A stretch of DNA of 33,161 nt from Acidobacteriota bacterium (GCA_020199995.1 JAIVJM010000251.1:1-33161), one strand, 5' to 3'; positions 569-27,275 are shown, counted from the stretch's first letter. Notes: generated by a model from the sequence alone, not told the origin. Made by a program: numbers and translations.

Positions 569-632
569 GAGGCTGGAGACCGGAGACTGTTGAAGAACAA
601 TCGGTTTTCAACAGCCTGACAGTCTCCAGCCT
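569..632. repeat. heptamer-unit inverted repeat between convergent genes
   Basis: The left arm is built of 7-nt units GAGGCTG, GAGACCG and GAGACTG followed by TTGAAGA. The right arm, read on the other strand, gives GAGGCTG, GAGACTG and TTGAAAA. The two arms can fold back on each other. The right arm ends one base before the stop codon of the glycosyltransferase gene. There is no strong T-tract, so this is not a standard terminator, although it sits between convergent genes. Confidence 0.75.
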
Positions 633-2056
633 CTATCTCGTTTGGACGAAGACCAGTGCGGCGTCTCCATTGTCGCCGATCAAGGAGACTTCGACGCCCG
701 GCTCGTCCGTCAGTTGGTGGATGTGTTCCGCAGGCACGAGCACGAGGGCGCGCCCGCCTGCTGCGCGGACGGCTTCGACGGCCTCTCTCCCACCTTCAAA
801 TTTCACGGGCTCGCCCTGCTCATCGTACATGAGGCGGCCCGCCGCGTAGAATTCCGCCGTGCGCTCGACGGTGTGGAGTTGGAAGACCTTCAGATCACCG
901 AACCCACGCGCCGAAGCCTCCTCGATGAGAGGCCCCACCGATTCCGCGCGCGCGAACCCGCCGAACGCGCAAGCGGCGACGAGGGCGACGGTCAAAAGCG
1001 TCGCGCCCGCGATTGAGACGACGCACAGCTCTCGCCGCCGCGGACAGAAGAGGGCGACGACTCCGGCCACTCCGGCGGGCAGAAGCATCGCCGCCGCGCA
1101 GGCGATGCCGGCAGGGCTCAGGGCCGAAACGTCGCCCGCCCGCCGCAGCTCATAAAAAACGTAGAACAATCCCGCGCCGAAGAGTGCGAGGGCGAGCGCG
1201 CCCGTGAGCCGCATCGCCCTGTGCCCTTCACCGCCGCGCAGATACCTGAGCACGCGCTCGGCTGCGAGCAGCGCCGCGCCGGGGACGGCGGGCAGCACGT
1301 AGCCGGGCAGCTTCGAGCCGGAGAGCGAGAAGAACAGCACCGGCACGACGAGCCAAGCAAAGGCCAGCACGCGCAATTTGCTCGGAGCGTCCTCGGCGCG
1401 CCAGTTCAACTCTCGCAGGCTCGCCATGCCGCCCGCCAGAAACGCCGTCCATGGGAGCGCGAGCAGCGCCATGATCGGCACGTAAAAATAGAAGGGCTGC
1501 GGGTGGTGGTACTTGTTCGAGAGGTAGCGCGCGAAATGATGCTGCACGAAGAACTCGTCTACAAACGTGTGACCGTGCCGCGCAATCACCGGCGCGTACC
1601 ATACGGCAGCGACCACCCCGCAAATCAACGTCCCCGAAATTATTCCGAGCTTGAACGCCCCGCGCTCGAAGCCATGACGACGGCGCAGGTGATGCCGAAC
1701 GGGCGCATCCACTCGCCCGCCGAGAGTTCTGCCCTGCGCCCGACCCAGCCGATGAGCAGCAGCGTCAGCACGCCCGCGCAGGCCGAGCCGAGGCGCGCGG
1801 CGAACTCCGACACCCCAAACACCTGATAGCCCGCCATCATCAGCCAGTAGAGCAGCGCGGGCTTCTCGAACCACGTGTGCCCGGCCAGCGTCGGCGTCAC
1901 CCAGTCGCCGCGCGCGTTCATCTCGCGCGCGACCTGCGCGTAACGCGGCTCGTCCGGCCCGAGCAGCGGCGCGGAGCCGAGGCCGTAAAAATAGACGGCG
2001 GCGACGACCAGCAGCAGGACGAGCCAAGCGCGCTTGGCAAGGATGAAACGTTGCAA
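633..2056 (-). pseudogene. GT39/ArnT-type polytopic glycosyltransferase, internally deleted and frameshifted
   Basis: The start is TTG at 2056 with GGAG seven bases upstream. The N-terminal frame (about 138 residues) has a first membrane helix, then LGPDEPRYAQVAREM and FEKPALLYWL, which are the luminal Asp-Glu loop and the E-K-P motif of the PMT_2/GT39 family (lipid-linked sugar donor, transfer to lipid A or protein). The C-terminal frame (from about 1672 down to 633) carries the remaining helices, with FFVQHHFARYL, the SGSKLPGYVLPA segment and a periplasmic-type C-terminal domain. The two frames meet at about 1657-1675. The expected middle helices and the K-G-P-type loop (by family comparison, on the order of 80-100 residues) are absent. 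The sequence therefore shows a deletion plus a frame change, not a simple one-base slip. As written it would not give a working enzyme. Confidence 0.72.
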
Positions 2057-2068
2057 GTATAGTCTCCG

Positions 2069-2210
2069 AAAGCGGTCAGAAGTCGGCTTTCAGCTCTCAG
2101 CCAAATGCTTTATCAGGTCGGACGAGTATCATTCATCTCAGACTTACGTTCAACCGCGAGCGCCTTTGGCAATCTCAAGCCGGCGGCTGACCGCTGATTG
2201 CTGACCGCTT
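2069..2210. repeat. heptamer-unit inverted repeat in the divergent gap
   Basis: The left arm (2069-2103) contains units such as GCGGTCA, GCTTTCA and GCTCTCA. The right arm (2176-2210), read on the opposite strand, contains GCGGTCA, GCAATCA, GCGGTCA and GCCGCCG. Both share a 7-nt period and start with AAGCGGTCAG. A 72-nt non-repetitive loop separates them. The gap lies between the divergently transcribed glycosyltransferase and oxidoreductase genes, so promoters of both genes must lie in or near it. Confidence 0.7.
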
Positions 2211-2224
2211 ATGGAGGACATCTT

Positions 2225-3205
2225 TTGACGCTCCGCACCGCCTGTATCGGCGTCGGCCACCTCGGACGACAACACGCGCGCATCCACGCCTCGCTCGCCG
2301 CCGAAGGGAAATCGAGCTTCGTCGCCGTCTGCGACCTCGACGAGGCGGCGGCTCGCCACGTCGCCTCTGAGAGGGAGACCGACTGGACGAACGACTGGCG
2401 CTCGCTCGCGGGCCGCGTGGACGCCGTGAGCCTCGCCACTCCGACCGAGTCGCACGCCGAAATCGCGTGCGCGCTTTTGGAAGCCGGGGTGCACGTGCTG
2501 GTCGAGAAGCCCATCTCGCGCACGCTCGAAGAGGCCGACCTGATGATCTCGTCGGCGGAGCGCGGCGGTGCGATGCTTCAGGTCGGACACCTCGAACGCT
2601 TCAACCCCGCGCTCGTCGCGCTCAAGCCGCACGTCCGCAATCCCGTCTACTTCGAGATTCACAGGGTCGGCGAATTCACCGCGCGCTCGCTCGACATTGA
2701 TGTCGTGCTCGACCTCATGATTCACGATCTCGACATCGTGCTCTGGCTCGTCGGGCATGGCGTCGAGGTCATGGACGTGCGCGCCGTCGGCATCCCCGTT
2801 CTGACGAACCGCGTGGACGCAGCCAATGCGCGCATCGAATTCGCGACGGGCGCGGTGGCCAACATCACGGCCTCGCGCGTCGGGACCGAACGGATTCGCA
2901 AGATGCGCTTCTTCCAGCCGCACGACTACGTCGCCGTTGACTACGCGACCCGCCGCGCCTCGATCAGCAGCCTCGTGCCGCCGAACGCCTCCGGCTCCTG
3001 GCCCGGCGTTCAGGTCAATAACCTCGACATCGCCAATGTCGAGCCGCTGCGCGCCGAGATCGTATCCTTCCTCGATGCCGCGCGCGCGGGCGGCCCCGCC
3101 TCCGTCACGGGCGCTGAAGGACGACAGGCTCTCGCCCTCGCCCAGCGTGTCCTCGAAAGAATCCACGAGCACCCGATTGTTTCCGGGCTCGGCGCAGGGA
3201 GTTGA
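2225..3205 (+). CDS. Gfo/Idh/MocA family NAD(P)-dependent oxidoreductase
   Basis: I chose TTG at 2225 because GGAGG at 2213-2217 lies seven bases upstream. This gives 326 residues with the Rossmann motif G9-V-G-H-L-G14 near the N-terminus. The cofactor-domain motif VEKPIS follows near residues 92-97, with the sugar-domain helix LDLMIHDLDIVL in the middle, all typical of the family. The combination GVGHLGRQHARI, QVGHLERFNPA and LMIHDLDIVL closely resembles the subgroup encoded with lipid A genes, which includes GnnA-like UDP-GlcNAc 3-dehydrogenases. Lipid A or other nucleotide-sugar oxidation is therefore the best guess. No lpx gene or transaminase partner is visible here. The gene is intact and is followed after 14 nt by the serine hydrolase gene. 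Confidence 0.85.
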   Translation: MTLRTACIGVGHLGRQHARIHASLAAEGKSSFVAVCDLDEAAARHVASERETDWTNDWRSLAGRVDAVSLATPTESHAEIACALLEAGVHVLVEKPISRTLEEADLMISSAERGGAMLQVGHLERFNPALVALKPHVRNPVYFEIHRVGEFTARSLDIDVVLDLMIHDLDIVLWLVGHGVEVMDVRAVGIPVLTNRVDAANARIEFATGAVANITASRVGTERIRKMRFFQPHDYVAVDYATRRASISSLVPPNASGSWPGVQVNNLDIANVEPLRAEIVSFLDAARAGGPASVTGAEGRQALALAQRVLERIHEHPIVSGLGAGS

Positions 3206-26060: not shown

Positions 26061-26115
26061 CTTCAACTCCTCGAACGACACCGCGCGCGCATACGGGCGC
26101 GCTCGAAAGTGTACC

Positions 26116-26144
26116 TTGACACCCGCCAGCCCGCACCTTACACT
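26116..26144 (+). promoter_or_regulatory. candidate mdh promoter
   Basis: A perfect TTGACA (26116-26121), a 17-base spacer and TACACT (26139-26144) form the best sigma-70-like promoter in the window. It points to mdh and implies a leader of about 160 bases. No other feature is evident in the 251-base divergent gap. Confidence 0.65.
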
Positions 26145-26311
26145 CGCGCTTTTCCACTTCTCACACCTGCGCGCGTCCGACAAGTTTCAGCAGAGCGCGA
26201 CGCGACACTCGGCGCGCGCGTCTGTGTCTGTGTCCGACGATTTTCCAAGCTCCCCGGCGGCGCATTTAATTTCAGATCGGACTATTAAAACAGGAAAGGA
26301 AAAGGAGAGAG

Positions 26312-27247
26312 ATGGGCAAGCGAAACAAGATTACGGTGGTCGGGGCGGGTAACGTCGGCGCGACCGCCGCGCACTGGATTGCGAGCAAGGAACTGGCCGA
26401 CGTGGTGCTGGTGGACGTGGTCGAGGGCGTGCCGCAGGGCAAGGCTCTGGATTTGGCGCAGGCCGCGCCCGTCGAGGGTTTCGACGTGCGAATGACGGGC
26501 GCGACGAACGACTACGCCGAGACGAAGGACTCCGACATCGTGATTATCACCGCCGGCCTGCCGCGCAAGCCCGGCATGAGCCGCGACGACCTCCTCAAGA
26601 CCAACGCCGGCATCGTGACGACGGTGGTCGAGGAGATCGTCAAGTATTCGCCCGACTCGATTCTCATCATCGTCTCGAACCCGCTCGACGCGATGGCGCA
26701 GGTGGCCTTCAAACGCTCGGGCTTCCCGAAGCACCGCGTCATCGGCATGGCGGGCGTGCTCGACTCAGCGCGGATGCGCTGCTTCCTCGCCGAGGCGCTC
26801 AATGTCTCGGTCGAGAACGTGACGGCCTTCGTCCTCGGCGGCCACGGCGACACAATGGTTCCGCTGCCGCGCTACTCGACGTGCGCGGGCATCCCCGTCA
26901 CGGAGCTTCTGCCCAAAGAGACGGTGGACGCGATTGTGAAACGGACGGCCAACGGCGGCGCAGAGATCGTCGGGCTTCTCAAGACCGGCTCGGCCTACTA
27001 CGCGCCCTCGGCGGCGGCGGTCGAGATGGCCGAGGCCATCCTCAAGGACAAGAAGAAAATCCTCCCCTGCGCGGCCTATCTCGAAGGCGAGTACGGCGTT
27101 CAGGGCCTCTACGTCGGCGTGCCCTGCAAACTCGGCGCGCGCGGCCTCGAACAGATCATCGAAATCAACCTCACGACCGAGGAGCGCATCGCCCTCCAAA
27201 AGAGCGCCGCGTCGGTGCAGGAACTCATCAACGTGCTCGGCATTTGA
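26312..27247 (+). CDS. mdh: malate dehydrogenase (LDH-like type)
   Basis: ATG at 26312 follows an AAGGAGAGAG ribosome site. The 311-residue protein has the NAD motif G-A-G-N-V-G near residues 11-16, with [19 protein letters not shown] and its acidic D-V adenine-ribose contact. The substrate loop is [23 protein letters not shown] and the catalytic [15 protein letters not shown] follow, the latter holding the proton-relay His. RKPGMSR with Arg at the specificity site marks malate rather than lactate. It interconverts malate and oxaloacetate in the TCA cycle. The succinate dehydrogenase operon lies 2.8 kb downstream on the other strand. A hairpin element follows the stop. Confidence 0.95.
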
Positions 27248-27275
27248 GGGGTTCAAGGCTCAAGGTTTGAAGTTG
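27248..27275. repeat. short heptamer run after mdh
   Basis: The units GTTCAAG and GCTCAAG, then GTTTGAAG, follow the mdh stop codon directly. No inverted partner is found. The adjacent palindrome is a separate element. Confidence 0.45.

Follow-up and report, generated by a model that had tools for sequence, protein, structure and literature searches.

What produces the tandem 7-nucleotide (nt) units that occupy so many of the gaps between genes in a 33,161-nt stretch of acidobacterial DNA? The stretch (GCA_020199995.1, JAIVJM010000251.1:1–33161; the whole of it is called the window below) is contig C266 of a 352-contig, 5.3-Mb genome of an uncultured acidobacterium (G000), whose nearest named relatives in a comparison of DXR are metagenome-assembled genomes of Acidobacteriota, several of them labeled Pyrinomonadaceae. 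A preliminary description of the window had reported such heptads in at least ten gaps between positions 569 and 27,275, with a word peculiar to each gap and the two arms of a gap using that word in inverted orientation, and had concluded that dispersal of a single element was ruled out in favor of local generation by fold-back or template-switch synthesis with slippage. We favor, with some reserve, a different answer: that the gaps hold members of several dispersed families of palindromic repeats, renewed by slippage in 7-nt steps and by template switching from arm to arm.

Results

Period Seven Dominates the Spacers

To count repeats we used a 926-kb sample (17% of the genome), part of which was selected for holding AGCTGTT arrays; spacers were defined by genes predicted with a simple codon model, and arrays were counted if they scored at least 14 and lay outside genes. 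Lag-7 matches were in excess in the spacers of both the sample (z = 40.5) and the window (z = 7.1), and harmonics were seen in the window at lag 14 (z = 6.5) and lag 21 (z = 4.2). Outside genes the sample held 130 arrays of period 7 and no more than one of any other period from 4 to 13, and arrays with periods of 6, 9, and 12 fell inside coding DNA, as protein repeats would predict. A subset of 22 contigs chosen regardless of repeats (259 kb) contained 32 period-7 arrays and 23 palindromes, in agreement with the full-sample counts. Seven was likewise the sole recurrent period in 20-kb samples from across the family, which held 0 to 8 arrays each, and loci totaling 743 kb, most of them from other phyla, yielded 11 arrays of period 7, one of period 9, and none of any other period from 4 to 12. 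The universal 7-nt period of the preliminary description is upheld.

A typical element is ~63–144 bp long, and each of its arms is a tandem array of one word, most commonly of four units. The arms are joined by loops of ~10–130 nt, the short ones being purine-rich in their first part and pyrimidine-rich in their second. An inverted partner arm, accepted when it exceeded the 99th percentile of a shuffled control, was found at 113 of 133 array loci, and where one spacer held neighboring arrays, 48 of the 55 pairs consisted of a word and its inverted copy, against an expectation of 6.4 when partners were permuted, confirming that the arms of a locus share a word. The sample contained 38 distinct 7-nt words, the most frequent being AGCTGTT, AGTAAGC/AGTGAGC, and GTGAATC/GTCAATC.

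Most of the loci originally listed in the window do hold tandem heptads, with period-7 arrays detected by Tandem Repeats Finder (TRF) at 10191, 10259, 12694, 16346, 16462, 17372, 18200, 18258, 19537, 19581, 20931, 20982, and 25632; the locus at 17371 has only about two units, that at 25326 two short units, and that at 27248 no clean heptad array. No partner arm accompanies the single arrays at 9130 and 25638. RNA hairpins are predicted at seven of eight window loci, with z values of −5.1 to −9.6, the 2069 locus being weaker (z = −2.8). The arms at 19510 differ by one unit, as had been claimed, and the fold has a 7-nt bulge there; at 12597, for which the same claim had been made, the unpaired stretch is 10 nt.

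Copies of a Word Are Dispersed and Probably Share Descent

Far from being specific to their loci, the words belong to a vocabulary common to the genome. The AGCTGTT array AGCTGTTAGCTGTTAGC had 160 genome-wide matches at one mismatch or fewer, whereas its reversed control had 0. When part of the window was blasted against the genome it comes from, more than 30 further places proved to resemble the 18194 element, at 72–88% identity across its full length, loop included. Seventeen copies of this ~100-bp TGAATCG family align end to end, from AAAAGCC to GGCTTTT, with a common loop, unrelated flanks, and both orientations represented. In this family only, a feature of miniature inverted-repeat transposable elements (MITEs) was seen, namely terminal inverted repeats that are conserved and end sharply against flanks unrelated to one another. 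The closest pair of copies is 96% identical over 76 nt at sites 28 kb apart, and the median best identity is 84%.

Arm order was constant within each word in 93 of 93 elements of multi-copy words, and the order seen in G000 was retained by the same words in other genomes in 18 of 18 elements. Independent fold-back would yield both orders, and the uniformity therefore argues that copies of one word share descent. Dispersal of elements within the genome is real: the same words recur at tens of loci and, for several families, the same arms at many, an outcome that the preliminary description itself had named as counting against its view. Dispersal had thus been ruled out wrongly, although no single element explains all loci.

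Words are also unevenly distributed among genomes (one genome per species was compared). A pattern for the TGAATCG palindrome, of which one element can hold several hits, gave 146 hits per strand in G000. Genus g18 was represented by three genomes with 152 (G038), 47, and 85 hits, G103 had 30, and most genomes of the family searched had none. AGCTGTT arrays numbered 56 in G000, 140 in G035, 32 in G105, and 0 in G106–G108, the rest of G105's genus. G035 belongs to genus g16, which is far from both G000 and G105, and its 140 matches stand against none in the close relatives of G105; this distribution suggests either horizontal spread or repeated amplification of one word. In G003, G008, and G002 of genus g3, and in others, only ~40 nt of the TGAATCG element was matched, as would be expected of single arrays that lack a partner arm; whether a word takes the palindromic or the single form may be lineage-specific. 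Loops of different words were alike, at a score of at least 9, in 8.5% of comparisons versus 3.1% for half-preserving shuffles, which is suggestive only of a loop motif universal to all words.

The Arms Agree Where the Words Differ

Variant units are mirrored between the arms of an element: their order fitted better than permuted units at 62 loci and worse at 8, with the control shifts re-optimized. For nine window elements we also read by eye, in alignments, the orthologous spacers of G105–G108, four genomes of genus g26 that are collinear with the window. These spacers held ~20 cases of a heptad palindrome with matching arms, the word being unlike that of the window in ~12; in several other cases the element was absent, as at 12598 in G106 and G107 and at 16339 in G108. 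The UppS–CdsA spacer, which holds the 16339 element, contains heptad palindromes in eleven genomes, G000 among them, whose words run from AGCTGTT to CAGTTTT and ATTTTGG; that of G108 has no heptad palindrome. These results support the part that the preliminary description gave to local slippage and template switching, here in keeping the two arms alike. At short inverted repeats, polymerases are known to switch templates and thereby to homogenize the arms and invert the spacer (PMC8604942), and the differences at orthologous sites are the pattern that arm-to-arm template switching and slippage, or re-insertion, would leave. Syntenic spacers in which the word has changed in both arms would be a natural record of arm-to-arm copying.

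Elements Lie behind Stop Codons

In 98 same-strand spacers the element starts a median of 4 nt past the stop codon, occupies 74% of the spacer, and ends a median of 19 nt before the next start codon; in 26 of the 98 it abuts or overlaps the stop codon. Stop triplets are frequent in the 5′ arm (0.111 versus 0.063 when shuffled), and the GC content of the elements is 45%, as against 64% for the genome. Divergent spacers are depleted, with elements in 7 of 67 versus 125 of 545 others (Fisher p = 0.018), and convergent spacers (12 of 57) show no enrichment over same-strand ones (113 of 488). In sense orientation the flanks are 39% A before the arms and 34% T after them, versus a background of 21%. 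Relative to the genes, the TGAATCG-family loop is found in both orientations (6 sense, 9 antisense), which counts against a function in which the loop is read as RNA.

Relation to Known Heptamer Repeats

The short tandemly repeated repetitive (STRR) heptamers of the cyanobacteria Calothrix, Nostoc, and Microcystis are tandem, degenerate 7-nt units found in intergenic DNA, with several words per genome. The present repeats share all of these features, and the likeness to STRR heptamers drawn in the preliminary description has held, tandem 7-nt units being over-represented against other periods and intergenic. STRR heptamers as reported are mostly single arrays, whereas the present elements are mainly palindromes; few inverted pairs were found in Nostoc by Rehm et al. 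(PMC4692102).

In Xanthomonas, arrays of GGGAATC, mostly of four units, are dispersed in intergenic DNA (Rehm et al. 2015; PMC4692102). They form 70–75 inverted pairs per genome in convergent orientation, lie near or overlap stop codons, and are rare between divergent genes, and no mobile element has been identified for them; heptamers in general are over-represented, for which slippage of a polymerase-footprint size and quadruplex function have been proposed (PMC4692102). The acidobacterial elements resemble them in unit length, four-unit preference, inverted pairs of fixed order, proximity to stop codons, and depletion between divergent genes. They differ in that Xanthomonas has one G-rich word per genome, whereas here there are at least 38 words in the sample with almost no GGG, most loci are paired, and at least one family has conserved loops and ends. 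In marine Beggiatoaceae, TAACTGA direct repeats lie upstream of start codons, with one inverted case (MacGregor 2015; PMC4679880). Both kinds are intergenic heptads with stop triplets in all frames, a patchy distribution over phyla, and mixed words in some genomes, but the TAACTGA repeats are direct repeats before start codons and the present elements inverted pairs behind stop codons. Like the palindromes known as repetitive extragenic palindromic (REP) sequences, bacterial interspersed mosaic elements (BIMEs), and MITEs, the elements are short, dispersed, and intergenic; unlike them, they have arms of tandem heptads and no association with Y1 transposases.

The best reading places the elements among the heptamer repeats of the STRR/GGGAATC type, a known but unexplained class, to which they add a new multi-word form. 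Our literature search, which covered open-access work with most subscription journals outside it, found no account of these repeats in Acidobacteriota. In these genomes dozens of words without G-runs agree in the length and number of their units and in where they lie, which makes unit length separable from any particular sequence. A tentative and rather doubtful extension is that heptad-armed palindromes make up one widespread, self-spreading intergenic class across phyla, of which STRR, Xanthomonas, and TAACTGA repeats would be single-word cases, with a shared replication mechanism acting in 7-nt steps.

Discussion

How might such elements arise and persist? Their dispersed copies with sharp ends show that they spread to new spacers within a genome, settling mainly just 3′ of stop codons, where AT-rich and often stop-bearing arms may be least harmful. 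Once there, an element would gain or lose units by replication slippage, in steps of 7 nt, and a polymerase switching template from one arm to the other would copy the first onto the second. Such copying would explain how words drift while the arms stay matched, as the mirrored unit order and the both-arm word differences at orthologous sites imply. When transcribed, the elements are predicted to form strong RNA hairpins between cistrons, but any effect on mRNA is, we think, secondary and not the reason for their existence; they are probably parasitic or neutral.

Several points weigh against this account. At 20926 and 10191 the word has been replaced completely, for which slow drift hardly suffices and re-insertion or conversion by another family would be needed. 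Single events are not seen, since the orthologous comparison is between genomes whose genes differ by 20–30%, and it relies on words compared by eye. No two copies at different sites were identical in the sampled 17% of the genome, which gives no sign of very recent movement. The strict arm order could come in part from a directional mechanism rather than from descent. Neither a transposase nor, by eye in the 17-copy alignment, a consistent target-site duplication was found, an autonomous copy not having been looked for, and the distribution of Y1 transposases does not follow that of the elements.

Most serious among the alternatives, if still unlikely, is that the elements are functional intercistronic RNA hairpins (bidirectional terminators, mRNA stabilizers, or processing sites) that selection maintains at the ends of genes. 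The strong predicted folds, the A-rich and T-rich flanks, the recurrence at one spacer across many genomes, and the scarcity between divergent genes would all suit this idea, but elements are no more frequent in convergent spacers than between same-strand genes, and the median of 19 nt to the next start codon leaves no space for a new promoter behind a terminator. The elements are, moreover, cleanly absent from the same junctions in sister genomes, their loops are oriented at random to the genes, TTTT follows the 3′ arm in only 19 of 98, and a terminator scan of the window showed no excess (20 found versus 17.5 expected). The set as a whole lacks the T run after the hairpin and the convergent enrichment that mark intrinsic terminators, although individual elements, such as those at 12598 and 18194, could be terminators. 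Hairpins of this kind can mislead the prediction of terminators and small RNAs in Acidobacteriota.

A purely local origin, in which each hairpin is born on site by fold-back or template-switch synthesis and then altered by 7-nt slippage without movement, would account for arms that match unit by unit within a locus and for words that differ between orthologous sites. We hold it improbable, given the many unrelated sites that have word, loop, and ends in common, the uniform arm order, and the amplification of single words in particular lineages; local generation survives only as a process of maintenance, which keeps the arms alike, and not as the sole origin. That the elements are REP-like or REPIN-like and are moved by Y1 transposases (RAYTs, REP-associated tyrosine transposases) seems very improbable: they are intergenic, palindromic, and dispersed in dozens to hundreds of copies, but five genomes that carry them (G105, G106, G107, G039, and G040) have no Y1_Tnp match, and four with 6–13 such matches (G033, G056, G067, and G112) have no heptad array in their 20-kb samples. 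A transposase of another family may still be involved. Searches for Rfam families, terminators, and Y1 transposases gave no explanation for the elements. We give least credence, and next to none, to the possibility that the repeats form quadruplexes, as proposed for the heptamers of Xanthomonas and Nostoc, with which they share unit length, four-unit preference, and stop-proximal placement (PMC4692102): a G-quadruplex motif occurs in 0 of 110 elements and GGG in only 3. The absence of G-runs from these heptads also speaks against quadruplexes as the general cause of seven. On our reading the elements are dispersed and are also copied locally from arm to arm.

Individual Elements of the Window

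Table 1. Heptad elements of the window (no strand assigned; fold z refers to the predicted RNA fold)
Position	Element	Context and remarks	Fold z
565..637	Heptad-armed hairpin, words GAGGCTG/GGAGACT	Convergent gene pair	−6.2
2070..2209	Heptad-armed inverted repeat, AGCGGTC/AGCTCTC ... GCTGACC	Divergent gene pair; loop ~80 nt	−2.8
9130..9160	Single degenerate AACTTTG array without partner arm	Promoter-side position; word kept in four related genomes	
10191..10283	Heptad-armed hairpin, AGAGGCT ... AGCCTCC	Just 5′ of DNA polymerase III delta′ gene (10296–11345)	−5.1
12598..12715	Heptad-armed hairpin, GTGAACC/GTGACAG ... GGTTTAC	Between RseP and neighbor; ends AAAAGCC...GGCTTTT	−8.1
16339..16499	Heptad-armed inverted repeat, AGCTGTT/AGCCGTT ... 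GCTAACG	UppS–CdsA spacer	−7.9
17372..17387	Short AGTTCAA array, ~two units, remnant-like	TRF	
18194..18292	TGAATCG-family palindrome, AAAAGCC(GTNAATC)n-AGAAAGAAC...-(GATTNAC)nGGCTTTT	Dispersed family	−8.3
19525..19615	Heptad-armed hairpin, GATTGCG ... AATCCGC	7-nt bulge, arms one unit apart	−9.6
20925..20997	Heptad-armed hairpin, AATGGTG/AATAGTA ... ACCATTT	Loop 17 nt	−6.1
25632..25663	Single ATCCTTC array, no partner arm found	TRF	

The g26 genomes illustrate how these sites vary (Table 1). The site of 565..637 holds AGTAGGC heptads in G106 and a dispersed palindrome without heptads in G107 (L218, ~1040–1150). The core of the latter, CCGCGGTAGCGGGTGG, has 70 matches in G106, mostly as inverted pairs, 28 in G107, and none in G000 or G105. 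At the site of 2070..2209, AGC-type words are present in G105 and G106, and AGTAGTC/AGTAGAC occupies both arms in G107 and G108. Upstream of the 10191 element is an open reading frame whose stop codon lies inside the heptads of the 5′ arm; other words occur at this site in G105, G106, and G108, and a stub remains in G107. The site of 12598..12715 has a related word in G105 and a different one in G108, and that of 20925..20997 carries AGTTCAA in both arms in G105. The remnant-like array at 17372..17387 corresponds to an AAAGTTC palindrome in G105, to AGTAGGC arms in G106, and to nothing in G107 and G108. In the UppS–TruA spacer of G106 (L212, ~16770–17080) we found a nested palindrome, in which AGTAGGC arms surround a ~300-nt loop with a second inverted repeat, GGGAGCGCGGGCATCCCTGCCC.

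Finally, we note two further features of the window. The 27248 locus is adjoined by a match to the Acido-Lenti-1 RNA (Rfam RF01687; 27284–27330, minus strand; 42.4 bits, gathering threshold 37), which accounts for the strong hairpin next to that locus. Promoter-like sites, located at 14182–26144, were slightly in excess within 9000–28000 (7 versus 2.0 expected), and one of them lies at the 18194 element.

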